From Branchiostoma lanceolatum (taxonomy: Eukaryota > Chordata > Leptocardii > Amphioxiformes > Branchiostomatidae), in NCBI RefSeq assembly GCF_035083965.1, contig NC_089729.1, forward strand, positions 13,813,464 to 13,877,463: 64,000 nucleotides of DNA. Reading direction: 5' to 3'. The notes under the pieces are model-generated. The model was not told the origin of the DNA. It saw only the letters and a list, made by a program, of their open reading frames with translations, and did not search any database. The position numbers were made by a program, and so were the translations under genes. Below, in pieces: positions 10,801-63,649 of this stretch (position 1 is the stretch's first letter; each line of letters starts with the position of its first letter).

Positions 10801-13800
10801 GACGATAGGTGAGATATTGTGTCATACTTTGCAAAAGAATAGGAAATAGCAAGGTCAAAGCAATTACAGGATAAATTTAGCTCAACTGTGCCCAAAAGGC
10901 ACAATGTACACATTGTATCCATGCAATTATCCGAATAGAATACCTTTTCAACATTATGGAACTTTTGCTGGGCCTCCTCCCTGAGTCGGATCTCTTTCTG
11001 CAGTATTTTTTTGCTGACCTCCTCTGCTATCTCACTCAGCTTACCCTGAAAATAGATAGATTGTTAGATGAAATACAAATTGACTGTACTTCAGTTTTTT
11101 AATAGAAAGGGAAAAAGAAGATAAAATTCATTGCGTTACAAAATTTCCAACAAGTGTTAAAAATAACAATAACATTACTGGTGACACTTTTTGCCCGGAA
11201 TATTCTAATCTTAAACCAAGCAAACAAACTTCACACATTGTATTTTGCTTCGGACAAATTTCTTTGAACTATGAACATCGATAGCCTCGGTACCATCCTC
11301 TGTAGTAACTGCTAGCTCAATCTTTTTGCTTGCTTACCACGGAATATTGAGGCAGCGATTTCTACGGAGGATAGTACCCAGACTAGAAAACCCACAGACC
11401 TGTAGTCTAACCCTCTCGTTCTCAGCAGCCTGTTCCCTCTCTCTCTGCAGAATGTCCACGGTGTGCAAGTCCCCTTCTCTCTTCTGTTCCAGGTTAGACA
11501 ATGTGGACTGCATCTCTGCTATTCTACAGTGGGGAGAACAGAACGAATTTCAAAAATACAGTTTTACATGACTTGTACTAAGCTTCCAATAACATGCGTC
11601 AAATTAAGGGTTAGGAAGACACAGACAGTTCATGCTAAAGTAAACCAATATCATAAGTTTGTATGTTTTCGTCTTTATCTTTCTTTTGGTAAACCATTTT
11701 TAGGTGCAAAACACAAGTATGTACAGTAACTAGTAAGTATACAAGCTGCGTAAGACAAGATAGTAAGGCTTGATCCATTCACACTGAGATGGATTCTTAC
11801 TCTTCTCAAATAAGTGTGGTGGGTTCTTAAATGTGCTAGAGGTAGGACTCTCCTCAAACACGGGACCTCCACTTAACGTCCTATTCAAGACACACACGGT
11901 ACCTAAATGAAGTGAGGAACTTTGTATAAAGTACATTTCGCAAGGACACAGCATTTTGTCCTGTCAGGGATTGGAAACCAGAACCAGTCTCCATTCTGGG
12001 GCTGCAACCCTTAGATAACCACAAGGCCAACCAATGCATATTCATGTATCCCTTACAATAGCAAATGCTAACCTCTATCAATGAAACCTAAAGCTTGTCA
12101 TGACAGGCCAAACAATGTAAGAAGCAATGATCGTACATCAATTCAAAGTGCTACAGCTGGTCTAGAAGGGTTATGCACGAATGCCTAGCCTGACAAAACC
12201 ACACCTTGACATTAAACGAACTGCACATCAAATTGCTGACATCTGGATTGGGAAGGTTTTGCATCAAATGTCTGTCAACAACATCCCACCTTGATTCCAT
12301 CTGTTGTTCCAGCTGTCTTCTTGACATCTCCTCTTGACTCTGCCTGTTCCTCAGCTCCAGTACAACATCCCTTACCTCCCCCAACCTGGTATTTCATGTG
12401 GCAACCAAAAAAGTGCATTGCAACTATGAAAAGTTCAGTGTGGTCATCTATCATTCTACCAAAATAAATAAAAAAATTGTACGGTTTTTGGCGGCAAATG
12501 TGCTACAATGTAGATGTTAGCCTATTGGTAACAAAATCCATAGTGTTTTTTGGCACACAATCCAAAGTTAATCGGTAGGCATCACTCCACTGCCAGGGAA
12601 GGTCATGTTAAGTGCCTTTCTCGAGGGCACAACTTCGGGGCATGGTGAGCATCGAACCCTGAGCCCTAAGCCATACTGATGCCTCACCAAAACTGAAAGA
12701 TGTTTTAACTATTATCCAAATATCCAGTGAAAAAATATATCGTACAATAAACAGTTTAACACACCACATTTTTACAAGACAAAGAACTAGTGTACAACAA
12801 GTTGCATGCAACATTGATTTTATCAAACTAATAAAAGTAATCTACAAACCTTCCATCAAACTGCATTCTGAGCTGACTTGAGGACACTTCAGTATGCTGT
12901 TGCATCTCACTCTGTTTTCTGATGGTGTCAATCTAGATAAGTGGAAGGAAAAGAGTTCAATTAGCATTATACCTGTATTGCCGGCCTACTTTTAGACAAT
13001 GACATTAAGCTGGTGCTATCTCTAGGTGTAGGGTTGAGTTCATATAAAGTTTATCAGTGTTTGACATCATGCAGTTAAGAGTTGATTCTCATTTAATTCA
13101 CATTAAACCTTAACATCCGTATCTGTAGATTATTAACAAAGGGGCTACTTGCCTGTGGTGAACCCACTACGACAACTCAGTATACTATATTTAAAGCAGA
13201 TAACAGATTCTAAAGCAAAATACATCACCATTGACAGGTTGTAGTTCCTTACTTGAGAAGTTAATGGGTTATTTTAAAGAGGCATCTCAACCAGTGTAGC
13301 TGCAATGACTCGAATGAGTTTGTACTTCAATTAAACACATTGTGAAATAAATTTTATCATTAGCACATGCCTACTAAATAGGTTGAGAATTAACACCTAC
13401 TTTGTTGCTTGAAATTTGGAATTTATGTTTTTTCTAGAAAATGTTTTAATTACTAGTAAGGAGTAATTGTAGAAACTAATTTAGAAGTAAAAGACAGTCA
13501 TGCCTATTCTTACAACTAAATATTTTCAAACTAATCCTCAACTTTTCCTTACCATAATAACTGTAACTTCAGTATATACTAATCAAAGATTTTGAAGAGA
13601 GAAGAGAAGAAAAACAAAGTTTCTAATTACCAAAGAAAGGTTGTACCTACCCACTATAAATACACAAGTGTCCACAGGTGCACACAAAAAGTAAGGAGAA
13701 AGAAATGATATGAATATAGTGGACAACACAATTACATAGATATGACAAATGCTGCACTAGAAACTTAATGAAGTTTTGAAATTGTGCAAACTCTAGAATA

Positions 13801-36523: not shown

Positions 36524-36596
36524 GAAAAGACGGTAACAGACAAGCGATCTTGTGTGACTAGATAATCCATCTCTACTCAAGCAAGACATCAGCCAG
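36524..36596 (+). other. 5'-UTR exon 2 of the peptide-precursor gene
   Basis: A 73-base block is bounded by TTTCCTTCCATAG and GTAAGCG, both near-consensus. It contains several stops in all frames, as expected for a leader exon. It fits between the exon ending at 35113 and the acceptor at 38159. Confidence 0.6.
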
Positions 36597-36693
36597 GTAA
36601 GCGTTGTATCTTGTCCATTATTCTCATAAAAGCGATGTACCTTTTTCCGTCCAAAACCGATAGGCTTGTTAGAATGGGAGGGCCCAGAGATTA

Positions 36694-36700
36694 AGTGAGT

Positions 36701-36755
<55 letters not shown>
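36694..36755 (+). repeat. (GA)n microsatellite
   Basis: A nearly pure GA run of about 55 bases preceded by GTGAGTGAGTGA. It lies in the second intron of the peptide-precursor gene. Confidence 0.95.
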
Positions 36756-36759
<4 letters not shown>

Positions 36760-37591
36760 TTTATTCAGAGTAGCATTGGCAACTGCAGTGCTAAAGGATC
36801 CAATCATTTCAGCCTCCCTTTCTAGAGTTTCTGAACAAGGTTTGCCTTCTTACTATTCCTAATTGGAGCTCGTTATATAGATAGAACCGCCTGAAGTGTT
36901 TTGTTTTTCTCCTGTGCTGAGTTGAAGAACTGTACGTTTACGTATATAAGGCCACAGCAAGTAAATCTAATGGATCAAGTCCTCTCAAAGTCCCATTATG
37001 ATAAAAGAAGGTGGAAGAATTGCGTTTAGTTTAAAATTAGAGAACTATTTGCTTTTAACTATAATCAAAGCAATCAAACATGGTATAACAGCCGTAAGAC
37101 ATTTTTAAAGACTTTTTTTATTCGTGTATTCAAAAGTGTAGTATGTCCATGCTCTTTGTAAAAGGCCCACTGCTCCGGAAATGCGGAGCTTAAGAAGCGT
37201 TACGATTTTGCCTTTCGCTATCTACTTGTAGTTTACTTTCATTTTTCAAATTTCATTTTTTCTTCACTTTTTGGCCATCACCGAAAGAAAACACTGTTTT
37301 TCTAAATCAAGTGAAACTCGATACATGCTATGATGCCATCTATACAATTTACTTCCTTCGGCAACGCCTGGTAGGCAGTAAGGAGATATTAGGCTGTATA
37401 CGTAATCCTCCGGATTCAGGAAGTCTCATAAGTGTTCGTTCCCTTGATCAAGGGCTCAAGATTGTATCTAATTACCTCATTAAGAGTTTCAACCGGAGGC
37501 GTATCTAATTAATTCTGATGCCACCTGTGCTTCAGTTGGAGGAAACGGCTGTTTTTCGTCAGTGACATACGTCATAGACATAACCATGTTG

Positions 37592-37983
37592 ATAAGCCAC
37601 CTCACAGTTCTGAGTGCGCTTGTGTAGTGTGATGTATCTAAGGTCAAAGTTTAAGGCCCCTACTTGCAAACAGTCCTCTGTCTAGACTTCCTGGCCAATA
37701 AGCTCTTTCATACTTCCAAGTACGCGTGCGCGGCGACAGGATTTGTGGGTAATATGTCAAAGGTGAAGTCCTCTGAGACGTAAACACAGCCAGTTATGCA
37801 AATAGAGACAATGATCGAGACGAGATTGTTCAAAAGTTAGGGGCCTTAATCTTTGACATGTTACCCACAATTCCTGTTGCCGCGCTTTTCGAAGTGTGAA
37901 ATAGCTTACTAGATATTGCTTTCGTCTCAGTGGTCATAAATTGTTACGTCAACAACAATCCCCTACACTATGAGGTGGCTTAT
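37592..37983. mobile_element. Foldback MITE, 392 bp, ends ATAAGCCACCTCA
   Basis: The 13-bp ends at 37592-37604 and 37971-37983 are exact reverse complements. Internal blocks are also inverted: GTTTAAGGCCCCTA against TAGGGGCCTTAATC, and GCGGCGACAGGATTTGTGGGTAA against TTACCCACAATTCCTGTTGCCGC. Most of the element could fold on itself. It lies in the second intron of the peptide-precursor gene. Confidence 0.75.
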
Positions 37984-38173
37984 ACTACTTAAATTGATTA
38001 TTGACTGAAAAAAGGCGAAATCATCGTTGTCAGCAGGTGCGTGTGACCAATGACAGTATATAGAATAATGTCCTTGGGGTGACAACGTGAACGCATTCAC
38101 CGGTTTGAACCAATTAACGCTTAGGTAAGAATTTTACAATTTTGTTGTGTTATTTGCAGGCTTCGGAAGCACG

Positions 38174-38518
38174 ATGAAAACGATGTTTATCGTGCTGTGT
38201 CTTCTGGGCGGGACATTCGCTCTGAGTCGCGATCCCTGGTGGTCCGAATCCTCCGCCGACGAATATTCTGCTGACGACATCTTCGCCAACCTCGTTCCCA
38301 GAGCCCTGTCCGACGTAGAAGGGGAACGAGCCGTCGACAATGTCTACGCCCTATACAGCCTCGTCCCAGGAGGCGTCGCCAAACGAGCTCGCTCGATGGT
38401 GCATAGTTTCGGACCCGGTCTCCGATACCTCCTCCTGCAGCCTAGACCATTCGGCGCTAGAGGAAGAGCAAGGGGGCGTCTAGGGTATGGAAAACGGTCT
38501 GGAGAATATTACGAATGA
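38174..38518 (+). CDS. Predicted secreted neuropeptide-type precursor, 114 aa, family unknown
   Basis: The coding sequence lies in one exon whose acceptor (TTTGCAG) ends at 38159. Residues 1-18 form a signal peptide (MKTMFIVLCLLGGTFALS). Then come an acidic propeptide (19-69), a Lys-Arg site at 70-71, a basic Cys-free peptide (72-105) and Gly-Lys-Arg (106-108), which should give a C-terminal Tyr-amide, then a six-residue tail. The likely product is a 34-residue peptide starting ARSMVHSFGPGLRY and ending RGRLGY-amide. Prohormone convertases, a carboxypeptidase and the amidating enzyme normally act on such sites. Its receptor would presumably be a GPCR. I do not recognise the family. SFGPGLRY recalls kisspeptin FGLRF but lacks the amidation Gly there, and the overall layout is only vaguely orexin-like. 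Two leader exons and a poly(A) signal support a real gene. Confidence 0.75.
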   Translation: MKTMFIVLCLLGGTFALSRDPWWSESSADEYSADDIFANLVPRALSDVEGERAVDNVYALYSLVPGGVAKRARSMVHSFGPGLRYLLLQPRPFGARGRARGRLGYGKRSGEYYE

Positions 38519-38897: not shown

Positions 38898-39162
38898 TGT
38901 ACAACGTGAGATAACTACATTATCGCACAACGTAAAATAACCACGTTATCATACAACGTGAAATTATCACGTTATCATACACTATGAGATAACTAAGTTA
39001 CGGCACAACGTGAGATTACCGCGTTATCGCACAATGTCAAATAAACACATTATCTTTCATCGTGAGATAACCCTGTTATCAATATCATACAGCGTGGTCC
39101 AACCACGTTATCATACAATGTAAAATAACCACGTTTCACACAACGTGAAATAATCAAGTTTC
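38898..39162. repeat. 26-bp minisatellite, about 10 units, each with inverted AACGTG/CACGTT
   Basis: Units such as CATACAACGTGAAATTATCACGTT repeat with small changes. Each unit holds ACAACGTG and, about nine bases on, CACGTTAT, so each can form a small hairpin. One unit carries an insertion near 39085. It starts about 130 bases after the poly(A) signal of the peptide-precursor gene. Confidence 0.85.
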
Positions 39163-40327: not shown

Positions 40328-43300
40328 TTACAGCAAGAAGACCATCGTGACGAAGCTGATGAAGTCCTTGAAGACGGTGAGCAGAAGAGCCAGTGTCAGA
40401 CTCTGTCCCCAAACTGACGGCAGGCCAGCACCTGACGTTGTCTGGCACTGGACGGGGTCTGGCGACATCAGGTCGCAAAACAGAAAGAGTTGTGAGTGAA
40501 ACTTAAAAGAAAATAGACTCAATGCCTATCGTGTCAGAAATGTCACAAACATTCCTTTAAGACACGTTGATGAAGATTAGACATCCATGTAAAAAAAAAA
40601 TACTTGTTACAATTCATACTCTACTACTAGATAAATTATGGAGATTACTTCAGGATGCTTCGAGTGACATCCATCACTTTTCTTCAGCCTCACTAGCGGT
40701 TGTTCTAGTGACGCCGAAGCAAAGTGATGGATGTCAATCGAAACGTCCAGAAATAATCTCAGTAATTTATCCAGTGATAGAGTTTGAATTGTATGTATTC
40801 TTAAAAGCCGTTACCGTCTTTTAACTGAGCCTAATTGAAGGAAAATCACATTGCTAATGATTTTACTGACGAGATGTAGCTACTGGCCTATTTTTCCTCC
40901 AACTCACCTGTTTTGTTCATGAGTGAGGGCACGTAGACATCCCACAGGGAACATTCAGTTGTCTTTAGTCCGGTCATCATCCTCGGGCTACTCCCGTCCA
41001 AGAACATATAGGCTCTGTTAGTCTCGGTGAATGGCGTCCACACTGCGTCGTCGTTGTTATTAGGGTTGCTGAAGGAGCAATACATCGTGCGGTTGATTTG
41101 CTAGGTTACATTCTATATGTTTTAAACAATGATGCTGTAAACTAGCTAGAAGAATACTAATTTTGTGACATGCGCGGTTCCACGAATTGCATAAAGCAAT
41201 AGCAATACTGCCATGAATTGGAAACCTAGAGATACTACGACCGAGATGATGACCTAAAGTCACTCTCCGACGAACGATAAAAATGACGGGAATACAATTT
41301 CATTGAATTCCCGTGGGGAAAATGCAGTAGCGGCACAAAACCGAAAACTTTAGAGAAAGAAACTTCGCCGCTAAGTCGGCCAATGCAACATAGTTGCGGG
41401 AGGATCTAAAGGCCCCCTCTCATTGGGCTGCGGTACTGTGGCGGTAGCGTGTGGTAGCTTGGAAATGGCTACCGCCGCAGTGCCGTGCATAGACCTCGGC
41501 GTACCGTCCTAGTGACGTCTCAGTGCCGTACAAGTGCCGGTCCACACCGCCGGCGTGCCGGTTGAAATGGCGATTTTTTTCAAATTTTGAAAAAAAACGC
41601 AAGTGGCAAAGTGCCGCGCGCTCGCCGGGAGCTTACCGGGAGCTCACCGCGCGCGCTATTGTATAAAAAGTGATATGTCAGTTTCAAGGTTATACGTATA
41701 TTCTATAACATGTTACCTTTGTTGTACCAAGTGTCATAAGTGAAAATCTTTTTATCATTTGAAATCAGTTTTTGATGCATTTTTTATTGATTTTGCATTG
41801 TATTTTGATCCATTAACAGCTAGCACTGCGATTTCTGATTAATTGAAATCACTACCATCAAAATACAATCGGTTCATTTCCCTAGCTATTGATCTGTTTA
41901 AGAGTTTGGTTAAACCTATTTTACTGCATTGCAGTGAGGTTGATGATTGTAGCTGTAGAACTTCTCATATTTTCATTGGGATATTGTTTTATCACACTTA
42001 AAATTAGATCATTGTACATTTATTCCAGTACGGAAGTTGGTAGACTAGTCGCTCAGGAAAGGAATCAGACCACTCGTCTACATGCACTCGCCCCGCTCTT
42101 GTGCCATTCAAGAAATACAGTACAGTGATAAACTGAACTTGATATACCAGTCAGACACTGTATCGCAAATTCTACTCAATGTTTCACCGTAAGGGGTGAA
42201 TTGGCGGAATTCCTATTGATCGTTGATAGTCAAACACAGTTGATTAGATACTCTCGCCAAGATTAAATAATTTACCTACTAACAGGTTTATTTAAAAAAC
42301 ATACGACACTTCATCATTCGGGGAAGAAAATGACTGTCAATACCAACCGTTTTGGATATACATTTAAAGAAAGTGTGAAACTCACGTTTCTCCCTGGCTG
42401 GAGGGAACCACTTAGAAATATCAGTAAACTCCACACATTTTATAAAATCAAAAATCACTTTAGCAGGGAAGACTTTATCACATCAATTCATGATAAACCG
42501 TTTGTAAGAAGTAACTACACTGAGAATCAGCGCACGTTGTCTAGAAGTTGAAAAAGATCGACACCACAACACACCAGGCACTCACAGATGAATTGCAATT
42601 TGTAATGGCCATGGCCTGTCCCACTTATGGCAAAGAGAGAGATGCGCTGCAAAGTATTACTACTAAGACTAACTTCACCATATCTGGTACACAGAACGAT
42701 GTATTGTTGTCATGTCCAACTCTTATACCACCTACATAGGTCAATTTCATTATACTTCATCCTAAAAGCGAGGGAAAAAATAATCCATACATGGCTTTAT
42801 TGTAATTCATACACTGTTATCGATAATGTTTTGTACTTATAATTGTAGGATAGGTTAGCCTTGCAGTATTGTTGATTTAGTGCCATATATTGTACCATAT
42901 ACGATGGTCGAACAATAAAGTTCATTCAATAACTTGCTCATCTAGGCTTCAAACGCAAATGCGCCGCACGTCAGTGAGAGTGCAAATGAGAATTGGTGAA
43001 AGAAACGCGACGGTGCCGTAAAAATCTGCCGTGGCAGTGCCGCCGCAGTGCCGGAGCCCAATGAGAGGGGGCCTTAAGGTCTAAGGTAATAGCAACACCT
43101 GCGCTGCGCGGGAGGTTAAGAAATGAATTCAAATCTATCGAAAAGAACCTGACATTGTAATTTCCAAGCTGAATTGCAAGGTGTGTTGGCAGAAAAAGTT
43201 TAAATTGTTAGTAAATATATGTACCCTATTTTGGCGAAGTTTGCCCAGTATCGCATCACCGTGCGGGACACCTCAGCATCCTCGGTACTGTAGCCGGCAT

Positions 43301-45728
43301 CTGGCATCGTGGGCAGTCCGAACACGAACTGCAGTTCATCACCGTGAGTTGTGACAACCCAGTCCGGCCAGGGTGATGCAGTGACGCGATGGGCAAACTG
43401 GTACATGTACACGGAGGTGCCGAACCGTGCATGGGCTTGTGCCGTGGTAACAGCTGGGCAGACGAACGAATAGTCTCCCCTTGCAGCATCCAGGATGTCC
43501 CGGTACCTGGTGTCGGCGTCAGGGTGTGGCCAGTCAGTATACTGGAACTCGACTGCCTCCAGTACCAACTCATTGAACCCTTGTGGAGGCATGTTCATAG
43601 CCTGTAGAAATTGCTCTCTATCTACGGGACTATTCGACCCTACGCTAAAACCAGAAATGCCAAGAAGGAAATTAAAGAGAAGGACACATTCATTTGTATT
43701 GGTCCCGATCAGAATATCGGCTCTTTTGAACATGCCGTCGTCGATGGCATCTGATGGGTTTAGAGGAATAAAGATGTTGTCATTCACTGGGTAGAAGCTG
43801 GTCAGGGTTGCAAACTGTTGTGCATCTTTAGATCGTAGACAGGTCAGTAGTGCTGCTGTCCCTTGTTCAGTTGGGCAGCCGAGACTTTCAGAAAACGCCG
43901 TGGTCTTGTCGGTAGCGTCGGATATGGTGTCGAGTATACCTGGCCATGGCTGTAAGGCAGTTCCACTCTGCAGAATGCCCCGACTGAAGACATCTCTGCT
44001 CTCCGGTGACAGGAGATGGAAACCTACGCTAGCCGCGCCCGCACTATTGCCAAAAATGGTAACCTTAGAAGAATCTCCTCCGAAAGATGGTATGTTTTCC
44101 TGTACCCACTGAAGGGCCAGTAGCTGGTCCGTCAGACCCATGTTTCCAGGCGCGTCATTAGTTCCTGTGTACAGGAATCCCAGCACGCCGATCCTGTAGT
44201 TAATGGTCACCACGACCACTCCTTCTGCGGCAGACAGATACTTACCTGTGTACTGTGCAGAAGAGCCACTGAAAGGAACAAAAAGTAATATAGTTTTAAA
44301 TTGTCAGATGTAGTCCTTTGGTCCCAATTGCACCGGTTCCCGTCGGGGGTGATTAGCTCACGGCATCTATTTGTAGCCGGGTCCCGCGCTTAATTCAAAC
44401 ATGAGTCAAATTGATTCGAAGTCCGGGCCGGGCCCGAAAATAGCCTGGCTACCGCGGGGTTTCCGACGGGGCCAGGGGTCACGCCCAAAAGCCCCCCCCC
44501 CCTCAAAAAATGGCTTTTTTCCAATTGAAACCGAAGCATGAAATAGCGGTTGACCACAAAACTAAGCATAAATTCGAAAAACATACATCCTATTGTGTTT
44601 TGATATGGGTCCAAATCCTTACTTATATTTGGAATTTCTTCTGATAATGTTGATACTGCGATTTCAAAGGACGTATATAATCGTAAAGTAATCGAAAAGT
44701 AGTGGATGCTACGTGAAACGTCTGACCGTTTCCGAAATCATATCCAGTTGCTTGTCAATGAGTTATTGCTATTTAGCGAAGATTTGTGATCTTTCATACG
44801 TACGTCCTGAAGCCCCCACCGTGAATCCAGACCATGACGGCTGCTCCTGTAGGGACAGGGTTTGGTTGCCAGACGTTCAGGTACAGACAGTCCTCGCTCT
44901 TCGGGGTGATCTCACCTCCCAATACAGTAAGACTCGATTCTTGAATGCACGTATTTGGATACCTAGGGATAGTGAATTAGTTATGTTTTAATTTGCTATT
45001 AATTTATCCCAATCACTTGTCTTTCGCGAAATGGAGTATTCGCTGTTGTTTTAAGTTCACGGCAGTGCTATAGTCACATACTGCTACAGTATTGGACACA
45101 AATGTTTTCGGTGGTTTTAAGTTGGCGGTAGAGCTATATACCAACACATACAGCTACAGTATTGGAGAAAAAATGTTACATATATATATCAAATTATATA
45201 TATTGTGTTATACATGTCAAATATTTGAAAATAAACAAAATAGGACGGAGGTGAAAATCTTTGGAAAATAAAATGAAATCAGAAACAGAGTTCTAGTTTT
45301 GAATGTAGGTGATTTAAGTTGAATGCCCGAATTTCAAATTTGGATTTTTATCCCAGTGGTACGTTATCCCGGAGGCCCTTTATTTGTTTTAACATCTGAT
45401 AAGGGAAAAATCACTGATTTTATATTGTCAAAACAAAACAAGTAAAATTAAACCTTCTGTTTTAAGATAGAAAGTGAAAAGAAGGTCAATACGTTGTGGC
45501 ATTGTAGACCCCGTCCCACGGAGGTAGGCGTTCAGCACGCCGAAAACGCCGCTCGCCGACCGGAGGATGAGCGAAGGGGATCCCGAGGAAGGTGTGAACA
45601 GTCGTCCCGAACACGTCCTGCTCCAGCCCGACAAGTCTTCCCGCAGGAGCCGTCACTTCAGCCGCTGCCTGGACTGTCACTGGGCTGAACATGGCGGCGC
45701 AGAGGGCCGCTAGAATGTACACAGCCAT
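40328..45728 (-). CDS. Secreted type-B carboxylesterase (cholinesterase-like), copy A, 576 aa
   Basis: Exons on the minus strand are 45728-45493, 44962-44804, 44268-43225, 41068-40908 and 40458-40328, with agreeing phases. The protein should hydrolyse carboxylic esters. It has a signal peptide ([21 protein letters not shown]), [23 protein letters not shown], the oxyanion loop HGGGF and the nucleophile elbow GNSAG (Ser about 207). The acid follows in NTNECV and the His in HGDELQF. A C-terminal hydrophobic run ([19 protein letters not shown]) may be a GPI or membrane signal. The aromatic choline-site residues of true acetylcholinesterases are not evident, so substrates are unknown. The first donor (AC/GTATTG) and the exon 3 donor (GG/GTACAT) are weaker than in copies C and D. 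Intron 3 carries a transposon missing from copy B. A 5'-UTR exon probably ends at 46631. Confidence 0.88.
40605..40797. mobile_element. Foldback element in intron 4 of esterase copy A
   Basis: Left words (AATTCATACTCTACTACTAG, ATAAATTATGGAGATTA, GACATCCATCACTTT) recur inverted on the right (AAAGTGATGGATGTCA, TAATCTCAGTAATTTAT, CCAGTGATAGAGTTTGAATT). The arms are about 75 bases with a loop of about 40 bases. The same element sits at the same place in copy B (48015-48195), so it predates that duplication. Confidence 0.8.
41409..43075. mobile_element. DNA transposon insertion, 21-bp inverted ends, in intron 3 of esterase copy A
   Basis: The ends at 41409-41429 and 43055-43075 are exact reverse complements (outer part AAGGCCCCCTCTCATTGGGC). 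Outside, GGATCTAA and AGGTCTAA suggest an 8-bp target duplication with changes, as for hAT elements. The matching intron of copy B reads straight through (GAGGCTCTAAGGTAATAG), which is an empty site. The ends are rich in GTGCCG/CGGCAC words. Inside lies a decayed LINE tail. Confidence 0.85.
41880..42930 (+). mobile_element. Decayed LINE 3' fragment nested in the transposon
   Basis: Plus-strand frames at 42330-42551 and about 42550-42740, broken by frameshifts, carry words typical of the C-terminus of non-LTR reverse transcriptases: [18 protein letters not shown], then [20 protein letters not shown], matching the usual D-E-x-H-F-x-x-x-C-P-x-Y block. AATAAAG occurs near 42914. It is not intact. 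Confidence 0.6.
44314..44538. mobile_element. Inverted-end repeat, GGTCCCAATTG family, copy 1
   Basis: Starts CCTTTGGTCCCAATTGCACCGG and ends CCAATTGAAACCGAAGC, roughly inverted. The interior is GC-rich (CGGGTCCCGCG, GGGCCCGAAAATAGCC). It lies between exons 2 and 3 of esterase copy A. Related copies lie at 46885, 49586 and 49918. Confidence 0.65.
45030..45170. repeat. Copy of the TTTTAAGTTCACGG / GCTATAGTCACATAC repeat
   Basis: The words TAAGTTCACGGCAGTGCTATAGTCACATAC, CTACAGTATTGGACA and TCGGTGGTTTTAAGTT match the MITE-like repeat at 59440-59645. It lies between exons 1 and 2 of esterase copy A. Confidence 0.55.
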
Positions 45729-46630
45729 ACCTGTCCTCTTCTGTACTTCTGTAGAACATCATACGAATCATAAATAACAAACTGACTGAGGTGTCACTAA
45801 AGGATAAAGGCAACAACAACATCAAGAAAAGAATACTGACTAAAGAATTATCTTTAATCATGAGTTTCAAAATCTTGGCTGTTTAAATGCCTTACATAAA
45901 GAGTCAACTTTTGTTTATTTATTATTTTCGTTATCAATGTATTCTCCCGTGCAGAGCTGTCCCGTGACCTTTATTATACATTAGGCCGGCCAAAAGAATA
46001 TCAAAGTCCGGATCTACGTGGGAGAAGGACAATGTGTAAATGCGGCTTGTTTGGTCTGTTGGTGACCTGGTGTGGTGCCCTCACGCCGCTGCCAACGTGC
46101 CCTTATTCTATAGCTGTAGTTGTGGCTGCATCATCTGACCTTGAAGACCTGTCAGTCGTAACGTAGATTTTTTCATCATATTGATATGCAGCATTATATG
46201 ATAGTCATCTCTATATATGAAAAATTGAATATTAAGCGAATACATCCATTACTCTACGATCACTGTTTTTGAACATTTTTCCAGCTCTCATGCAACATTG
46301 TCTTGAACAGCATACAATGAGAGACAGTTTATGTCAATTTGTTCTATAAAAGATAATGATTCAATGAAGGTCCTGTCCATGTTTAAGCATTGTAACTCCG
46401 ATTATTACTATCAAATACCAAATTGACCTCTGTTCCTTGTAACGCAAGCACTCGTCTATAAGACCTTTCTTCATTGTAACGCAAGAACTATAAATATGTA
46501 GCTTTGATAGCAGTAGTACACACTCAGTTCATCGTGAGTTTGATATCTGTCACTCAATTAGTTGATAACTAATGACGACAGTTGTTCACTCATGGTGCTT
46601 TCTATATGAAGGGAGCTCCGGTGATATTAC

Positions 46631-46680
46631 CTGTTAACTCTTCCGCTGCTGTGGTGGTGGCCTCACCTGCGCTACAATGA
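46631..46680 (-). other. Probable 5'-UTR exon of esterase copy A
   Basis: On the minus strand CAGCGGAAGAGTTAACAG is followed by GTAATATC. Copy B has the matching AGAGGTTGACAG followed by GTAACGTC at 49198. The first coding exon has an acceptor two bases before the ATG, so a leader exon is needed. The upstream end is not defined. Confidence 0.5.
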
Positions 46681-46884
46681 ACAACACAATTTGACCTCTT
46701 GGTCATATCACGTCAGCAGGTGACACATGCCCTGGATTCAGTGCCTGTTCGTTGATCATGTGTGAGAATATGTGTTACCTGATGACCAAAATGTCGGTTT
46801 GTGTTATTCTTTTATGATAGGGGAGAATTCCACAACAGCGCCGGTTCGTTGATCAGGGGATATGTGTCAGTAATGGCAGTAATT

Positions 46885-47028
46885 CTTCGGTCCCAATTGC
46901 GCCGGTGTCCCGGGGGTGTAGACCCAACCGGGCCCCGGAGCCACAAATCTGTCCCGGTGGGCTGCCGGGTACCGTGGGTTAACTGCCGGTGCTCGCACGA
47001 TTAGCTCACGGTGTCTATTAGTTGCGTC
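46885..47028. mobile_element. GGTCCCAATTG family repeat, truncated copy 2
   Basis: Starts CTTCGGTCCCAATTGCGCCGG and runs to ATTAGCTCACGGTGTCTATTA, then breaks off into the block shared with 52390. The right end is missing. Confidence 0.6.
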
Positions 47029-47600
47029 GGTTTTGATTTGACTTTGATTGCCATGATAAGATACAAGAGTAGCACAGGCGGCGAATGTAGATTCTGACAA
47101 TAAGGGATGTAATTCTATGCAAATTAGCGTGAACTCATAAAAGCTTGCAATAGATGGTATGCATATAAGAATCATTCTGTAGCTTGAAAGGCAACCCCAG
47201 GGGACTAAGGGTATGGGTCTTGTTTTTTTAAACCCTTTCACCAGTAGAGCACAACACAGGATTCTTTTAATCTTGTCACATTTTTTAAAGGTTGGACAAA
47301 AATAGTCAGATTATATCATTATTATATGCAATCTATGGTGGCACACGTGCACGTTTTTATCAACAGAAGCTTCTAAATTCATTGATATTTGTTATGTCCT
47401 TATACCTAGAAGTGAGTGGAAAATAGTCAGACGAAATACCAGAAAGCAGTGATTGAAGACTTTATTGCCACATCAAATGTTAGAAATCAAAAGACACATC
47501 ACAGCAACTAAACACTTCAGGGTAAATAATTCTACGTCAAGCCATGTTGAATGAAAATCACCTAAAGTAAAGAGCCTTCATGAAACAATAGGTCCGTAGG
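47029..47600. repeat. Segmental duplicate of 52385-52960 (3' flank of esterase genes)
   Basis: Long near-identical runs are shared, including ATTCTATGCAAATTAGCGTG, ATAAGAATCATTCTGTAGC, AGAAGCTTCTAAATTCATTG and ACTTTATTGCCACATCAAA. The blocks lie downstream of copies B and C respectively, so the duplication unit carried the gene's 3' flank. The minus-strand AATAAA at 47461-47466 is the poly(A) signal position. Confidence 0.8.
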
Positions 47601-47738
47601 TAAAATTAAATTGATATGAATAATCATTAGTATGAAATTCTATCATGCTCACAAAGAATTTATTTAGTGGCTATAAAACCTAGCTAGTGGTCAAAGGTGA
47701 TTTATTTTTGTGCTCATCTATTCAGCTCTGCGCATCTC

Positions 47739-49028
47739 TCACAGTAGGAGGATGGAAGTGACGAAGCTGATAATGTCCTTGAACACAGTCAGCAGTAGAG
47801 CCAGTGTCAGACTCTGTCCCCAAACTGACGGTAGACCAGCACCTGACGTTGTCTGGCACTGGACGGGCTCTGGCGATCGACACCAGGTCGCAAAACAGAA
47901 AGAGTTGTGAGTGAAACTTAAAAAGAAAAGAGACACAATGCCTATCGTGTCAGAAATGTCACAAACATTTCATAAAGACACGTTGATGAAGGTTAGACAT
48001 CCATGTAAAAAAAATACTTGTTAAAATTCAAATTCTTCTACTAGATAAATTACGGAGATTACTTCAGGATGTTTCGAGTGACATCCATCACTAGCGGTTG
48101 TTTTAGTGACGCTGAAGAAGAGTAATGGATGTCAGTCGAAACGTGCGGAAATAATTTCCGCAATTTATCCAGTAGTAGAGTATGAATTGTATGTATTCCT
48201 AAAAGCCGTTACCTTCTTTCAACTGAGCCTTATTCAAGGAAAATCACATTGCTAATGGTTTTATTTATGAGATATAACTGCAAGCACTTATTCATTGCAC
48301 TCACCTGTTTTGTTCATGAGGGAGGGCACGTAGACATCCCAAAAGGCACATTCAGTGGTTTTTAGTCCGGTCATCATCCGGGGGCCACTCCCTTCCAGGA
48401 ACATGTAGGTTCTGTCAGCCTCCGTGAAAGGCGTCCACACTGTCACGTTGTTGTTGTTAGGATCGCTAAAGGAGCAATGCATCGATTGAATTAATAGGTT
48501 ACATTCCATATGTTTTCAACAATGATGCTGTAAACTAGCTTAAAGAATACTAGGTTTCTGACATGTTCGGTTCCACTAAATGCATACGGCAATAGCAATA
48601 CTTCCATGACTTGGAAATCTACGAATACTACGACCGAGATGATGACCTAAACTAAAGTCACTCTCCGACGAACAATGATAAATGAGGGGAAGACAATTTC
48701 ATTAAACTCCATTGGGAAAACTGTAGTATCGGCACAAAACCGAAAACTTTAGAGAAAGAAACTTCGCCGCTAAGTCGGCCAATGCAACATAGCTGCGGGA
48801 GGCTCTAAGGTAATAGCAACACCTGCGCCGGAGGTTATGAAATGAATTCTACTCGCCGACCGGAGGATGTGCGAAGGGGATCCCGAGGAAGGCGTGAACT
48901 GTCGTCCCGAACACGTCCTGCTCCAGCCCGACAAGTCTTCCCGCAGGAGCCGTCACTTCAGCCGCTGCCTGGACTGCCACAGGGCTGAACACGGCGGCGC
49001 AGAGGGCCGCTAGGATGTACACAGCCAT
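47739..49028 (-). pseudogene. Esterase copy B: deletion pseudogene
   Basis: On the minus strand exon 1 starts at 49028 ([16 protein letters not shown]) and is intact to about PPVGE. At about 48852 it runs into sequence matching intron 3 of copy A (GGAGGTTA-GAAATGAATTC). Exons 4 (48465-48305) and 5 (47869-47739) follow with sound splice sites and open frames. The rest of exon 1, all of exon 2 and all of exon 3 are gone, so the catalytic Ser, Glu and His are absent. Donor context of exon 1 is lost as well. Exons 4 and 5 resemble copy A closely, down to the shared [10 protein letters not shown] tail and intron 4 foldback. A promoter-side donor at 49198 is kept, so it might still be transcribed. 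Confidence 0.88.
48015..48195. mobile_element. Foldback element in intron 4 of esterase copy B
   Basis: The same hairpin as at 40605-40797, at the same intron position, with a shorter loop. Inverted words are ACATCCATCACT and GTAATGGATGTC, with ATAAATTACGGAGATTA against AATTTCCGCAATTTAT. Confidence 0.75.
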
Positions 49029-49480
49029 ACTAGACTTCTTATGTAGTTCTGTAAAACATCAAAACAAATCAAAATCAAATGGCAAAGAAGTATACATTGT
49101 TGCTATTGTTGTTAACTTAAAGCTACTGATAACTTTTGAGGATGGTTGTACACTCAAAGTACTTTCTATGAAATAAAGGGAGCTCCAGAGACGTTACCTG
49201 TCAACCTCTGATATTTTAGCTGCTGTACTACACATGATCAATGGACAAGCGCTGCTGTGGAATTCTCCCTTGCCATAAAAAGAATAACACAACCCGACAT
49301 TTGGTCATCGAGTAACACATATTATTACACATGAGTAACGAACCGGCACTGAATCCAGGTTATGCATCACCTGCCGACCGCGGAGTCAGTTTATGTTATT
49401 CGTTCTTGCACAGGTGACACCACCACATGTAATAACATGTGTTACCCGATGACCGAAATGTCGGTTTGTGTTATTCCTAC

Positions 49481-49508
49481 CAAGGAGGTTTTATATAAAA
49501 CCTCCTTG
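49481..49508. repeat. Perfect 28-bp palindrome
   Basis: CAAGGAGGTTTTAT is followed directly by its reverse complement. Related imperfect copies lie near 28955, and a CTCCCTGAAGGAG word lies at about 25110. It lies about 280 bases upstream of the copy B leader donor. Confidence 0.9.
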
Positions 49509-49585
49509 TTCCTACTTGTGCAGGGGAGAATTCCACAGCAGCGCCGGTTCGTTGCTCAGGGGATATGTGGTGTCACCCGCTAATG

Positions 49586-49896
49586 CCTCGGTCTAATTGC
49601 GCCGGTGTGTATATGTAGTCCCGGGGGTGTAGTCCCGTCGGGACCCGAAGCCAAAAATTTGTCCCGGTGGGCTGCCGTGTATCTGGGGTACCTCCCGGTG
49701 CTCACACGATTAGCTCACTGTGCCTATTTGTTATCGGGTCCCGCGTTCAATTTAACTCAAATTGTCAAATTGATTCGGAATACGAGGTTGGACCCAAAAA
49801 AAGCCCGGCAACCGCAGAGTGTCCGACGGGACCACGTAGGGGTCACGCCTGAAAAAAGCTACCCGACGGGGCTACTTTTTCCAATTGGGACCGAAG
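49586..49896. mobile_element. GGTCCCAATTG family MITE, copy 3 (about 311 bp)
   Basis: Starts CCTCGGTCTAATTGCGCCGG and ends CCAATTGGGACCGAAG, so the ends are inverted. The interior is GC-rich with direct CCCGTCGGG/CCGACGGG words. Confidence 0.7.
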
Positions 49897-49917
49897 TATA
49901 ATAAAGACGCCAGGTAA

Positions 49918-51776
49918 TGCTTAGGTCACAATTGCGCCGGTGCCCGTCGGGGATGTAGCCCCGGCCGGGCTCTGACGTTTGGGGGGCACCGGCTGTCTTG
50001 GTCACAATTAAAAGTTTCCTTCACGCTGCCCTGTAGGGGTCCCGGGGTGCTCCGACAGGTACTCGGTGGCATTTTTGTAAAATTTTCATTGTCGGTCTCC
50101 GGCAGGTACCCGTCAGTTGCTCTGACGGTGTCTTGTAGTGACCCCTGTGGGGTCCGACAGGGTACCGCGTGCTTATCACATCCAGGTGGGGCAGTTGTAG
50201 GGTCCCTGCAGAATGCCCCGCGAACGACGGTCGGCCATCAGGCAGGCTCCTGGCGGGCACTCGTCATATCTCGGGGTTATATAAAACTGCACTCGATCCG
50301 GAGCTCAAAAAGAAACACGATATACGAAGTTCACGCTTTAGTTCTACTCACCTGATCTGTAACGTCACACACTTGACCCGGTCTTACGAAGTACACACAT
50401 TTAGTCTGTCCACTTGATCCGTATCATAACATAACAATACCTTATTCTAAAATCTTTGGCGATAACACCAACATATTCCTTTTCCACAAAAACGTTGACC
50501 CTCTGATACAACTGGCTAACCAAGATATGTGTAAAGTACGTGGTTTGATGCAAACAAGTTACGGACAAATTCCAGAACTACCTTATTTTCTGTAGTAAAA
50601 ATAAAAGTTATGATATCAATAAGTCCAAAATGTTCCTAATGTACAAGAGAAACAGACCAACATTTTGGGGGGTAATAGTAGATGAACATTTAAACTCGAA
50701 AGCCCAGTCTCTGCTATAAGTAAAAAAAATGCTAAAACAATTGGTGTTATTGTGAAAAGCAAATACATCATCCCTGAAAAGATTCTCACAACTATTGGCA
50801 ACAGCCTTATATACTCATATTTGACCTAATGTAACATTGTTTTGGGATGCGCCTGCCACACAACTCTAGATCCGCATATAACTCTCCAAAAGAAATTCAC
50901 AAGGATAGCAACTGCTTCTGACTTTCGCTCACACATGGCTCCTCTATTTCAAAAATACTAGACATCCACGATATCAATAAATTACGTTTAATTTCCATTC
51001 TAACAGTTTCCCCAATATATTCTATATTTTCCCAAACCCTTCTTCACACTTGTTCACAACTATTATACCAGGCAAAGAAATCCATATTCCTCTCTTTCGT
51101 ACATCATTAGCAGAGTTCTCGTCAAGTGCAAATATATCACAATATGGAACAGTCTTCAGACAAATATACAAACAATCACCCTTTTTTCTTACCTTTAAAG
51201 GTGCCCTGAAAACCTATCATAGCCGCCCTGTAGTAGAGTCACATGTCCAGTTATTATCTAACTTTTATTTAGACCATTATTTGATTATCATTGTCTATCG
51301 TTATCATATTCTATGTATTACTTTGCTATATTATTTATAAGTTATAATCAAGTTTGATAAGTATAGACGAGGAGGGCCAAGTATAAGCTATAAACGCTTT
51401 TTTCCTCCTCCTGAACCTGTTATTATCTATTGTTTATCGTATTGTGTTTTATAAATTTTCTTGTTGTGCAAATGAATAAAAAACAAACAAACAAACAAAC
51501 AAACAGACAAATTATTACTTGTCCCGGTGGACTGCCGGCAACCGGAGGGGTACCACGCGGTGTTCTCACGTTGAGGTCACGGCGTCGTTGTGTCCGCGGG
51601 GCCCGGGTAGAATTTAAGTCAGAACTAAATTTTTCTCGGGTCCCCGCCGGGCCCAAAAATAGCCCGGTAGCCGCAGGGTGCCCCAAGGGGCCACGTAGGG
51701 GTCACGCCCGGAAGTGCCAAAAAGCGGCCCGGGAACTACCCGGCAGGGCCCCTTTTTCCAATTGTGACCTAAGCAT
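49918..51776. mobile_element. GGTCACAATTG family transposon, copy 4, split by a LINE
   Basis: TGCTTAGGTCACAATTG at 49918-49934 and its exact reverse complement at 51760-51776 bound the unit. The GC-rich family sequence occupies about 49918-50270 and about 51515-51776. Between these is an AT-rich plus-strand LINE fragment, so this looks like one element with a nested insertion. Confidence 0.75.
50440..51510 (+). mobile_element. Decayed 5'-truncated LINE with reverse transcriptase remnant
   Basis: Reading through stops and frameshifts, plus-strand frames give GDNTNIFLFHKNVDPLIQLA (the usual FADDTNIF catalytic box, here with an Asp lost). VIVDEHLNSKAQ, VKSKYIIPEKILTTI, IYSYLTYGNIVLGCACHTT and TLQKKFTRIATAS follow, all in the order found in CR1/Jockey-like reverse transcriptases. 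It ends in an (AAAC)n tail at about 51478-51508. Confidence 0.8.
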
Positions 51777-51790
51777 AACGTTATTCTTTT

Positions 51791-52150
51791 GTGGATGAAA
51801 TAAAATCACATGCGGAACTTATGACAATAACGTTACTTGAAAACTTGTCTATGCAGACAAACATCAATGATAGCAGGCCTGGCATTCTTGTGCTTACATG
51901 TGGGGTAAGTAAGCTAAGAATGTCAAACTGTTTGAAACATTTGGGTCATACAAACAAGGGTGTTAAACTAAAGCCGTTGAATCAATGGTCCAGGAGCTAT
52001 CTGTTAGAGGAAGGGTGTAGCGACGTTTGCATCTCGCAAGGGGGCATCCCAACACTGGGTTGCGGTATCTGGAGTCTTGCTAATGATTTTGCGGATCGGC
52101 GATTAACCCTTCAAAACGCAATCATGCTCCGGCATACTTTAATCAATTAA
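51791..52150 (+). CDS. Unassigned open frame of 119 codons
   Basis: An uninterrupted frame starting MDEIKSHAELMTITL right after the transposon at 49918-51776. It has no signal peptide, repeats or known motif. Codon use and neighbourhood give no support, so it may be chance or part of an unknown repeat. Confidence 0.12.
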   Translation: MDEIKSHAELMTITLLENLSMQTNINDSRPGILVLTCGVSKLRMSNCLKHLGHTNKGVKLKPLNQWSRSYLLEEGCSDVCISQGGIPTLGCGIWSLANDFADRRLTLQNAIMLRHTLIN

Positions 52151-52785
52151 TGTAGGTTTTCAATTTTCAAATTTTCAAAACTCTAAGTTTTTCAATATGA
52201 AAATAAACGTAATGCGCCCCATGCTAGTTCAGTGCTAATATAAAATCATCTTTTTATTCACACATTTTGTCCTGAGATAAAATTGACAATCAATTCACAC
52301 ATTCCTTTGTTCTTTGAATCAATTAGCAAGCAAATCTTTCTTTCTTTCAAATATAGCGATCAATAAGTTGTGAATCCTTTTCAACTTATGATTTGATTTG
52401 ACTTTGATTGCCACAATAAGATACAAGTTGGCGGCTAATGTAGGTTCTGGCAGTAACGGATGTAATTCTATGCAAATTAGCGTGAACTCATACAAGCTTG
52501 AAATAGATGGTATGAGCATATAAGAATCATTCTGTAGCTTGAAAGGCAACCCCAGTTTCTTTTTTTTAAAATCCTTTCACCAGTAGAGCCCAACACAGGA
52601 TTCTTATAACGTTTTTTAAAGGTTGAAATAAGATAGTCAGGTTTTATCATTATTACATACAATTCATGGTCGCACACGTTGTTATCAACAGAAGCTTCTA
52701 AATTCATTGATATTTGTTATGTCCTTATACCTAGAAGTGAGTGGAAAATAGGCAGACGAAATACCAGAAAGCAGTGATTGAATAC

Positions 52786-52791
52786 TTTATT
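52786..52791 (-). terminator. Poly(A) signal of esterase copy C
   Basis: AATAAA on the minus strand about 395 bases after the copy C stop, inside the 3' flank shared with copy B. Confidence 0.55.
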
Positions 52792-53184
52792 GCCACATCA
52801 AATATTAGAAATCAAAAGACACATCGCAGCAACTAAACACTTCAGAGCAAATAAGTCTACGTCAAGCCATGTTGGATGAAAATCACCTAATGCACTAGCA
52901 GAGAGCCTTCATTAGAACAAATTGCGCGGGTAAAATTGAATTGATGAATAATTATTTGTATAAAAATTTCTCTAGCCTGTATTTACACAGGCTCTCGGCC
53001 GGAGGTTACTGACCCCCTCTAGAGGGATGGTGGTTACAGGACCGGCTGGCCACTAGGGGCGCGATTCGTCAGGTTAGAATTTTGTCATGCTCACAAATAA
53101 TTTCTTTAGTGGCTACGAAACCTTGACTTCTGGTCAAAGGTTGTCTCTTTTTGCCAAGTGCCCAACGGTCTCCATGTCCATCTC

Positions 53185-56490
<3,306 letters not shown>

Positions 56491-56593
56491 ACCTGCAGAA
56501 CGTTTGGAAATATGACCCATTTTAAAAGTCAGGGTTACTAGTTTTGAGTTCATACATCTAACACATAAGTGCAATAGCTGGCTGCAATAGCTG

Positions 56594-56905
56594 AGGCCGT
56601 CCACGAGTCAGTCACGTCGCCAGGTCCGGGCTCGACACGACGAGCGCGCCTCGCCCAGCCCCGGACATTCCCGTCTCGCTTCTGGTCCCAGCCCGACCGG
56701 CCCAGCCCTTAGAGCCAATCCTTCTCCCGAAGTTACGGATCCGGCTTGCCGACTTCCCTTACCTACATTGTTCTATCGACTAGAGGCTGTTCACCGCGAG
56801 GCCGGGCGCCCATCTCCGCGTTCGGGAGCGCGGCCGCACACCACCCGCCGAGAGACCCCCGCAAGCGAGAGTCCCACAACAAAGGCGGGGCGACACCTGA
56901 AACTA
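56594..56905 (-). pseudogene. 28S rRNA gene fragment inserted in the leader intron of esterase copy C
   Basis: On the minus strand the block contains GGTGAACAGCCTCT, AACAATGTAGGTAAGGGAAG, TCGGCAAGCCGGATCCGTAA, CTTCGG, AAGGATTGGCTCTAAGGGC and TGGGCCGGTCGGGCTGGG. In order, these are the conserved core of eukaryotic 28S rRNA just before the D8 expansion, with GC-rich variable sequence on both sides. Only about 300 bases are present and it is surrounded by intron, so it is a dispersed fragment, not an rRNA gene. The matching intron of copy D lacks it. Boundaries are approximate. Confidence 0.88.
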
Positions 56906-57028
56906 CTTCATACTTTTGCCATATTTTGGCAGATTTCAGTAACGATAGTCATGCTACCGATAATTCAAGGATTGCGAACCTTAGGATGCTGATCAAAAAG
57001 CCCGTGAATTAGTAAAAGAACAACTTAC

Positions 57029-57110
57029 CTGCAACTTTAGAAAGCTTCGATTTTCTTTCTTCAAGAGGGTTACTCAAATGATGTCCGTCCTGTGCTGGCC
57101 TAGACGTATA
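57029..57110 (-). other. Probable 5'-UTR exon of esterase copy C
   Basis: On the minus strand GAAAGCTTTCTAAAGTTGCAG-like sequence precedes GTAAGTTG. The block and its upstream flank (GAGTAACCCTCTTGAAGAAAG) are conserved at copy D (63650-63700). The first base is not defined. Confidence 0.5.
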
Positions 57111-57119
57111 TTTGGAGTG

Positions 57120-58612
57120 TTATCTGTTACAAAAGCCTCTTAAAGGGCTCGGAGCTAACAAACTCACAGGACGTATTTGTCTGTAAGCATGCCTGTACGC
57201 ATACCTTAACGCCACCTGCTCTACAAACACTTTCACAAAGGAAAACCAAACTGTTGACTTCGTCTGGCAAATATAAACAGTTGCGTCTTCACGATTCGCT
57301 TACTTTCAAACGCAACTTAAGTTGTATTTACCTATTTCAAAGGTGCGTGTCTGGTTTGCTGTTAACTTAACTGACATAATTGGGCCAATGGTGCATACAG
57401 GGTAAATTTGCAACTCATTGCTGTCAATATTGCTGGGCATGTCATTGCCTCGTCAATCGTCAACCATTGCGACATTAGAAAGGATGTATGGGACGACCTT
57501 TGCTATTACAAATTCGAATGAAGACGTTATTGAAACAACATACAGTCTAAAATCAAGGCTCTGTATCATTAATCTTTAAGGAGAAGATGGCATGTCAATC
57601 TAAGATCAATATCAAATATATCTATTGGCCAACAAAAGGTAGTTACGGATCTCTAAGAAAAATAGCTGAACCTTGTTAAAGAAGGACGTACAAATGGGGT
57701 CTCAGTTAATGTAATACTAATAGGTCGATTCAGAACTCTTGTTTGTATCACACAGATCTATCAAAGAGTTTGTCAGCCTTTGACAAATGTTATCCTACGT
57801 ACTAGGTACAAATATAAAGATGCCAAGTCTCGTATTGGATGTTTGTCTACGAGAACAAAGATACCTGTCCCGCATTGTCATTAGTTCCACAGGTGATTTT
57901 CTTTGATCTCCACAACAAAGAATAACACAAATCGACCTCATGGTCAGCTGGTGACACATTTCATCTGTCGCAGCAGTCGATTGAAATGGGGGGTGGCACA
58001 GCAGTGAAAACGTGGACAGAAAACGTCTTCCTTCATTTCATAGAAGTCAATGTACGAATGTACAAATTGTTGTAATTGGTTTATCTGGAACCAGCTTTAA
58101 CTTAAGTTTTTAACTTCACCCCAAATAAATCGTATGTTGTTCTCTTGGTGTTACCACATATCGATGAATACCCATAAACTCTGCGTTGCAATGTACATTG
58201 GTAACTACATAATGGGAACAAAGATGTTAAAGCATAAACAAGAGATCCATTGAATGATGTGGATCTGTGTGTTGGAAGGAATAAATTGTAATAGATCGGA
58301 TCTCTTCGTATGCTTAGAGGGTGCAAGGCAGACGTTCGAAAACAGTGGTCACAGACGGAGTTACATATTTGGTTACTTTTTGCCTTGGTTTCAGAGGCAA
58401 ATGTTATAAACGACTTAATCAACTTTGTACATTTCTCTGTGAAAATCCGCATTAAGCCAAAATAAGTCTATTTTTAATGGTTTATGTCATCACACACACT
58501 ATTTTGCAAAAAGAACTGAAGGACGTCAGAATAGCTTAAGACTTAACAATAACTCGATGTATTGAGGTCAGGCACACACTAATGTGTTCGTAACACAGCA
58601 AGGCGTTAACAC
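57120..58612. other. Intergenic stretch between esterase copies C and D
   Basis: No exon or repeat end was recognised. A 116-codon minus-strand frame at 58102-58452 has no domain signal. The left part should contain the promoter of copy C. Confidence 0.5.
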
Positions 58613-58618
58613 TTTATT
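58613..58618 (-). terminator. Poly(A) signal of esterase copy D
   Basis: AATAAA on the minus strand about 450 bases after the copy D stop. Confidence 0.5.
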
Positions 58619-59068
58619 AGCACAGCGAATACATTCCAACGTTTGAAGAAAAGCAAAACAAAACAAAGGCACAGCAAACAGTTACAAACAAACACACCAT
58701 TCTTTGGAGTAAGTACGTACGTAACCAGCAATGATAACAATGACAATCAAAAAACGCACTGAAGAATAAAATGCTGGTCTGAATGATATTGTAAAGCTGA
58801 ATACGTACAACAAAATAGGCATAACTCATACTTGCAAATATGGATGTTCAAAAACATCGTATCAGACTATACCAGATACTGCAGGGTTGCTGACTCTAAA
58901 GATCTTTCAATGTATTGCATATCTTGCATGTGTCTCTACATATTTGTATGTCTGCATCATAACTACATTTGAAGGCTAGCTCAATCAATTTCAACTGTTT
59001 AACAAGTTGTCTATGTGATACATTGAAGCGTACTTCTAGCCACTCTGTGTTATTAAAGGAAGCATCCC

Positions 59069-62800
<3,732 letters not shown>

Positions 62801-63649
62801 ACCTGCGGGTTCGATTATTTGTCATGGCGTCAAACTTAACCATTCCAAGTGTATAGTTATAAACAACGGGTGGATATTCAGGCTCAGGCTAGAATGTATA
62901 TTTCTTTACATACACGTTTATGATCCGTCACGATGCGTTTTAAAAGAAGGAAATTAACAGCATCACAAGAGTGACGGCTTGGTCCGCAGACAAATAGATA
63001 TTTACACCAGGTTTACTTTTACCTTACCTTAAAACACGTTTGGAAATATGACCCATATGATTGATTATTGAGTCCATAGATTTGATGTAACATTGCAATA
63101 GCTATCTTTAGCCATAACCTGAGTATAATAAAAAAATGAGTAAACAAATACGTCTTGTCAAGCCCTATGACATTTTAAAGGCAGCCAAAGCAATATTAGG
63201 GCCCAACATATGGAAATTTAAAAAATAATGAAATCTTTATGGTAGTGACATTTACTAACACCGCTGAATAACGTCATACTTTGGACATTCTAAAACCACA
63301 CAGTAATCGTGACGTACGATGATTCCCCTACTTTCGCGAGCCTACAAAAACCCTGGCGACGATTTTCAGTGAGTACTCACATTACAACGTTAACGACGTC
63401 GTAGTTTTACACTATGGTAGTCGCTAGACATTTTGATAGCGTAGTTTGAACTAATCATGTATAGAAATTACCAAACAAAATTTACTTTCAAAATCCGATT
63501 TACGGGCGCGGCACTAATATTGCTTGGCTTTCCTTTAGGGGCTATGGCTAGTAACGATAGTCATGCTAACGATAATTTTCAAGAAATTCTAACCTTAGGA
63601 TGCTGATCACAAAGCGTCTGAATTAGGAAAAGAACAAATTAAGTAATAC

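Follow-up and report, generated by a model that had tools for sequence, protein, structure and literature searches.

An uninterrupted frame of 114 codons on the forward strand of Branchiostoma lanceolatum contig NC_089729.1 (38174–38518 in the window, by which we mean the whole stretch of 64,000 nucleotides analysed) raises the question of whether it encodes the precursor of a secreted amidated peptide and, if so, what such a peptide would do. Its translation reproduces exactly the layout described in the first-pass annotation: signal peptide, acidic spacer, KR at 70–71, a 34-residue Cys-free basic segment, GKR and a tail (Table 1). The precursor begins with M-K, carries small residues at −3/−1 and has a best 9-residue hydropathy mean of 2.99; judged by eye with the −3/−1 rule, the signal peptide MKTMFIVLCLLGGTFALS may be cleaved after A16 as well as after S18. 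The negative charge of the spacer is composed of 10 acidic and three basic residues, the positive charge of the basic segment comes with seven Arg, and the monoisotopic mass computed for the predicted amidated 34-residue peptide is 3811.107. AlphaFold, run on the single sequence without alignment, gave a mean pLDDT of 46.5 with no residue at or above 70, which hints weakly at a precursor without a folded domain.

Table 1. Predicted elements of the candidate precursor and its gene, in window coordinates
Feature	Position	Strand	Basis
Putative non-coding 5′UTR exon, CCATAG/ ... CCAG/GTAAGC	36524..36596	+	splice consensus in sequence
Putative intron GTAAGC...TTTGCAG	36597..38159	+	splice consensus in sequence
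Coding exon, splice acceptor to stop, including 14 nt of 5′UTR	38160..38518	+	splice signal, coding score
CDS, 114 aa, no interruption	38174..38518	+	translation; coding score
Predicted signal peptide MKTMFIVLCLLGGTFALS	38174..38227	+	hydropathy; −3/−1 rule by eye
Acidic spacer, 51 aa, net −7	38228..38380	+	charge count
Dibasic cleavage site KR (70–71)	38381..38386	+	translation
Predicted mature peptide, 34 aa, net +7	38387..38488	+	translation, charge count
GKR (106–108), amidation and cleavage signal	38489..38497	+	translation
Acidic tail SGEYYE, then stop	38498..38518	+	translation
Polyadenylation signal AATAAA	38762..38767	+	begins 244 nt beyond the end of the stop codon

The frame has the general traits of peptide-hormone precursors, namely an N-terminal signal peptide (hydropathy, −3/−1 rule) and a dibasic-bounded peptide with a Gly amidation donor, together with a trait of cationic antimicrobial precursors, an anionic pro-piece before a cationic mature peptide. 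Layout alone does not distinguish a neuropeptide precursor from a charge-balanced antimicrobial one, and what we describe looks like a real amidated secreted-peptide precursor of unassigned family, with a function that may be signalling or defence.

Proposed processing and function of the predicted peptide

Convertase cleavage at KR and GKR, trimming of the exposed basic residues and Gly-derived amidation are established prohormone biology, and from these well-known motifs we infer the processing of the present precursor. On this view one animal gene, present in one copy in the window, encodes a preprohormone that would enter the secretory pathway by means of the predicted signal peptide; prohormone convertase would cleave it after KR70–71 and after GKR106–108, carboxypeptidase would remove KR, and peptidyl-glycine alpha-amidating monooxygenase would use the Gly now at the end to form a C-terminal Tyr-amide. 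The expected product is a lone Cys-free peptide of 34 residues and net charge +7, ARSMVHSFGPGLRYLLLQPRPFGARGRARGRLGY-NH2, which may be shortened by additional cuts at single arginines. Since a tail follows GKR, the Gly would become accessible only once the convertase has cut, a situation known from classical prohormones, and an amidation site with a further tail appears in this sense prohormone-like. A tblastn search for paralogues in the 64-kb window returned nothing below E 0.83 besides the precursor's own locus.

The peptide would then most likely serve as a regulated-secretion signal to a G-protein-coupled receptor, and a single amidated regulatory peptide of this kind is on balance the reading we prefer, with somewhat more confidence than doubt; receptor and function are deduced solely from the kind of precursor. 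Several observations count against it. Neither Pfam nor PDB sequences revealed similarity to a known hormone, and NPFF, the closest in a panel of canonical peptides, reached only p 0.11. For a signalling peptide, +7 is an unusual net charge; 1/33 of the signalling members of the panel reach at least +6. Finally, the mature part has a weaker coding signal than the spacer.

Balance of charges between an acidic pro-part and a cationic mature part is a classical trait of antimicrobial precursors. In the present case a pro-piece of net −7 faces a mature peptide of net +7 that has no acidic residue among its 34, as would be expected if an anionic pro-piece neutralised a basic host-defence peptide up to its dibasic release and C-terminal amidation; the Arg-Gly/Pro-Arg-rich end would then bind microbial surfaces or nucleic acids, not a receptor. 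The same order of parts is found in BjAMP1 of B. japonicum, for which PMC4683396 describes a 97-aa precursor with signal peptide, anionic region, dibasic site and a 21-residue cationic peptide of +6, found in silico, then bench-tested as antimicrobial and called non-homologous to the antimicrobial peptides known at that time. As BjAMP1 shares the charge-balanced layout, the defence reading has to be taken seriously as a rival; the first-pass annotation had not considered this comparison. Both precursors are about 100 aa long and end in a short cationic peptide, and the hydrophobic ratio is 35% in the candidate against 38% reported for mBjAMP1 (PMC4683396). The mature peptides differ, since mBjAMP1 has 21 aa, two Cys and a GRR at the precursor end which was kept in the synthetic peptide, while the candidate has 34 aa, lacks Cys and continues after GKR with a six-residue acidic tail. 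Charges of at least +6 were counted in 4/7 antimicrobial against 1/33 signalling peptides of the hand-picked panel, and mBjAMP1 aligned second of 40 (z 3.34), although without panel-wide significance (p 0.229). The segment does not, however, look like a clear amphipathic helix: the Eisenberg moment in 11-residue windows has its maximum (0.53) near the start and, of the 24 windows, the final 11 lie at 0.11–0.28. Prohormones often have an acidic spacer as well, and GKR with a further tail is more like a prohormone. We rank the hormone reading ahead and regard a defence role as the less likely of the two.

The first-pass annotation had proposed an undescribed neuropeptide. Its proposal of a secreted precursor that yields one basic and probably amidated peptide, of a family it could not name, agrees with the sequence, the coding signal and the failed family searches, while the word neuropeptide claims too much, the −7/+7 layout being equally of the antimicrobial type. 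Tentatively, one may think of an undescribed family of Tyr-amidated peptides rich in Arg and Gly, which lancelets or invertebrate deuterostomes alone may possess; its members would have a hydrophobic N-terminal half and a highly basic RG tail, and may act both as receptor ligands and as host-defence peptides. One synthetic peptide of defined mass could separate the two functions. If the gene is expressed, the peptide repertoire of an invertebrate chordate would gain an orphan ligand, in a setting with many known peptide receptors; for B. floridae, 16 receptors of kisspeptin type and three of PrRP type are reported in PMC4062910.

Comparison with known peptide families

Pfam gave no match either to the precursor or to the 34-residue segment alone. 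The single sub-threshold NCBIfam match of the precursor (BREX-6 BrxE, 14.3 bits at a cut-off of 80) was dismissed as chance. Among PDB sequences (chains of at least 20 residues) the precursor had no match, and the lone scribble match of the segment (E 3.1) was also taken as chance. Rfam at gathering threshold matched nothing in the whole window. Close relatives were sought in bacterial/archaeal and viral contigs, and none of the 247 and 21 pattern matches, respectively, was confirmed, which is no surprise if the gene is an animal one. In the literature texts searched, a set outside the catalogue of Mirabeau and Joly 2013, reportedly the main published one for amphioxus peptides, none of twelve letter strings from the precursor or its predicted peptide occurred.

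The panel mentioned above comprised 40 hand-picked canonical peptides (33 signalling and 7 antimicrobial; three with sequences taken from papers), which were aligned to the segment with its Gly and to 1000 shuffles of it. Panel-wide significance was reached by none of the 40, the 7 antimicrobial ones included. NPFF came first (z 3.88, p 0.111), and NMU (z 2.87, p 0.412) and PrRP (z 2.35, p 0.657) followed mBjAMP1; since the likenesses to these four fail the panel-wide test, they were not used for naming. As far as its sequence tells, the precursor fits no peptide family tested.

The kisspeptin core is NSFGLRF, and the candidate contains a faintly similar HSFGPGLRY, which is internal and not at the amidated end (panel z 0.94). 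Kisspeptins require, according to PMC4062910, two Asn 5–8 residues and a Phe/Trp 3–4 residues from the amidated residue, and the candidate, with no Asn among its 34 residues, lacks this feature.

A strongly diverged member of the NPFF/GnIH, NMU, PrRP or NPY families with an altered diagnostic C-terminus would also yield an amidated peptide, and it is in this direction that LLQPRPFG, which resembles LFQPQRFG of NPFF, RYLLLQPR, which resembles RYFLFRPR of NMU, and the fourth place of PrRP among the 40 may be read. The first two stretches lie, however, inside the segment and not at its amidated terminus, and none of the three is favoured by its panel-wide p (0.11, 0.41 and 0.66). NPFF/GnIH-type precursors are likewise amidated, but the C-terminal PQRFamide (PMC4077772) or LPXRFamide which they require is replaced by RLGY-GKR in the candidate. 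The amphioxus NPFF-type precursor described in PMC4077772 yields three PQRFamide peptides, as opposed to one ending in RLGYamide here, and its locus is proposed by the authors to be syntenic with HOX-linked vertebrate loci; among the window neighbours examined no HOX-linked gene was found. With PrRP/sNPF and NPY/NPF the candidate shares an amidated peptide of about 20–40 residues with an aromatic last residue. According to PMC7314547, RF/RYamide is required in both, with an intron inside that Arg codon for NPY/NPF and a phase-1 intron in the peptide-coding part for PrRP/sNPF, whereas the candidate ends in LGY-GKR and its coding sequence is intronless. Moreover, in chordate and echinoderm PrRP precursors, as described there, the single peptide adjoins the signal peptide, which is not the case here. 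Such a diverged member is improbable.

Coding evidence and gene model

The 142 stop-free stretches that span 75 codons or more were ranked by their best 75-codon score, using codon log-odds trained on eight stretches of the evident exons of the window (three with one stop codon each, one with intron run-in), and the candidate frame came fifth. Ranks 1–4 are carboxylesterase exons, three by Pfam and the fourth (62564–62821) by near-identity to one of these three; the training set contained three of these four and not the candidate. The score was repeated with six stretches free of stops (1796 codons, mostly inside Pfam matches), comparing synonymous codons only. The candidate then scored 0.155. 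The null, made of 2000 back-translations with whole-window average usage, lay at −0.101 (sd 0.050), and 0/2000 draws came as high; with such a null, part of the excess may stem from local GC, which is 0.567 at the candidate versus 0.346–0.427 in the five flanking stretches measured. Split at KR, the synonymous-only score was 0.191 for the signal peptide plus spacer and 0.099 for KR and all that follows. In six 90-base windows lying fully within the coding sequence the frame exceeded +2 in all six and +1 in five; the exception is the last of them, at the Arg/Gly-rich end, where +1 contains a stop. For windows starting at 38372, 38417 and 38462, the third of which extends beyond the stop codon, the open frame scored 0.27, 0.20 and 0.01, and +1 scored 0.17, 0.30 and 0.19 with stops in the latter two. 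One precursor-like frame was found in the real window and one across 60 simulated 64-kb order-1 Markov sequences, which is a rough guide only as the filter was devised after the candidate had been seen. Based on these data, 38174–38518 looks like a real coding exon.

The splice acceptor TTATTTGCAG has its last base at 38159. Joined to the coding exon, the putative UTR exon brings an in-frame stop and no ATG into the 87 nt modelled before the start codon, which is thereby well placed. Together the acceptor, this likely 5′UTR exon with its stop and the AATAAA form a coherent gene model, and the gene structure may be regarded as supported. Nothing in the sequence suggests an artefact from a missing upstream exon in the candidate frame. 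The concern that the exon might be joined in another frame, raised in advance by the first-pass annotation, finds no support in the gene model, with its stop preceding the ATG, or in the frame comparison given above. A chance open frame, or a secreted protein other than a peptide hormone that is never processed at KR or GKR, would account for the lack of database matches, but with a coding score among those of true exons, coherent splice and polyadenylation signals and, by the post hoc filter, a comparable frame in 1 of 60 simulated windows, it is the least probable of the explanations weighed here.

Repeated elements surround the coding exon. The putative intron contains a GA dinucleotide microsatellite of 29 copies (36697–36754) and an inverted repeat at 37728–37885 with 47-nt arms, 85% complementary and spaced by 64 nt, possibly a small MITE. 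Shortly 3′ of the polyadenylation signal lies a degenerate 26-bp tandem array (38901–39160; 9.8 copies, 65% matches, near-palindromic unit), and all five matches to AACGTGAGATAACYACGTTATC with at most three mismatches fall within it.

Neighbouring genes in the window

The window is animal genome DNA. On its reverse strand, three tandem cholinesterase-like (carboxylesterase) genes occupy 43200–62821, with main exons at 43200–44303, 53996–55084 and 60127–61209, the first sharing 80% and 71% identity with the remaining two. A signal-peptide exon, near-identical by eye, occurs three times (45486–45758, 56251–56607 and 62561–62821), and the residues around the catalytic Ser differ among the three esterases (GNSAG, GQSAG and GESAG). 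The one esterase compared with PDB sequences had acetylcholinesterases as best match. The window also carries an amine oxidase, with spermine oxidase as best PDB match, and a BTB-BACK-Kelch gene recognised by Pfam. Several open coiled-coil-like stretches on the reverse strand at 6631–15809, perhaps exons of one gene, may be FAM81-like; 15279–15809, the sole stretch among them scanned with Pfam, gave sub-threshold matches only, the best being HOOK at E 0.018.
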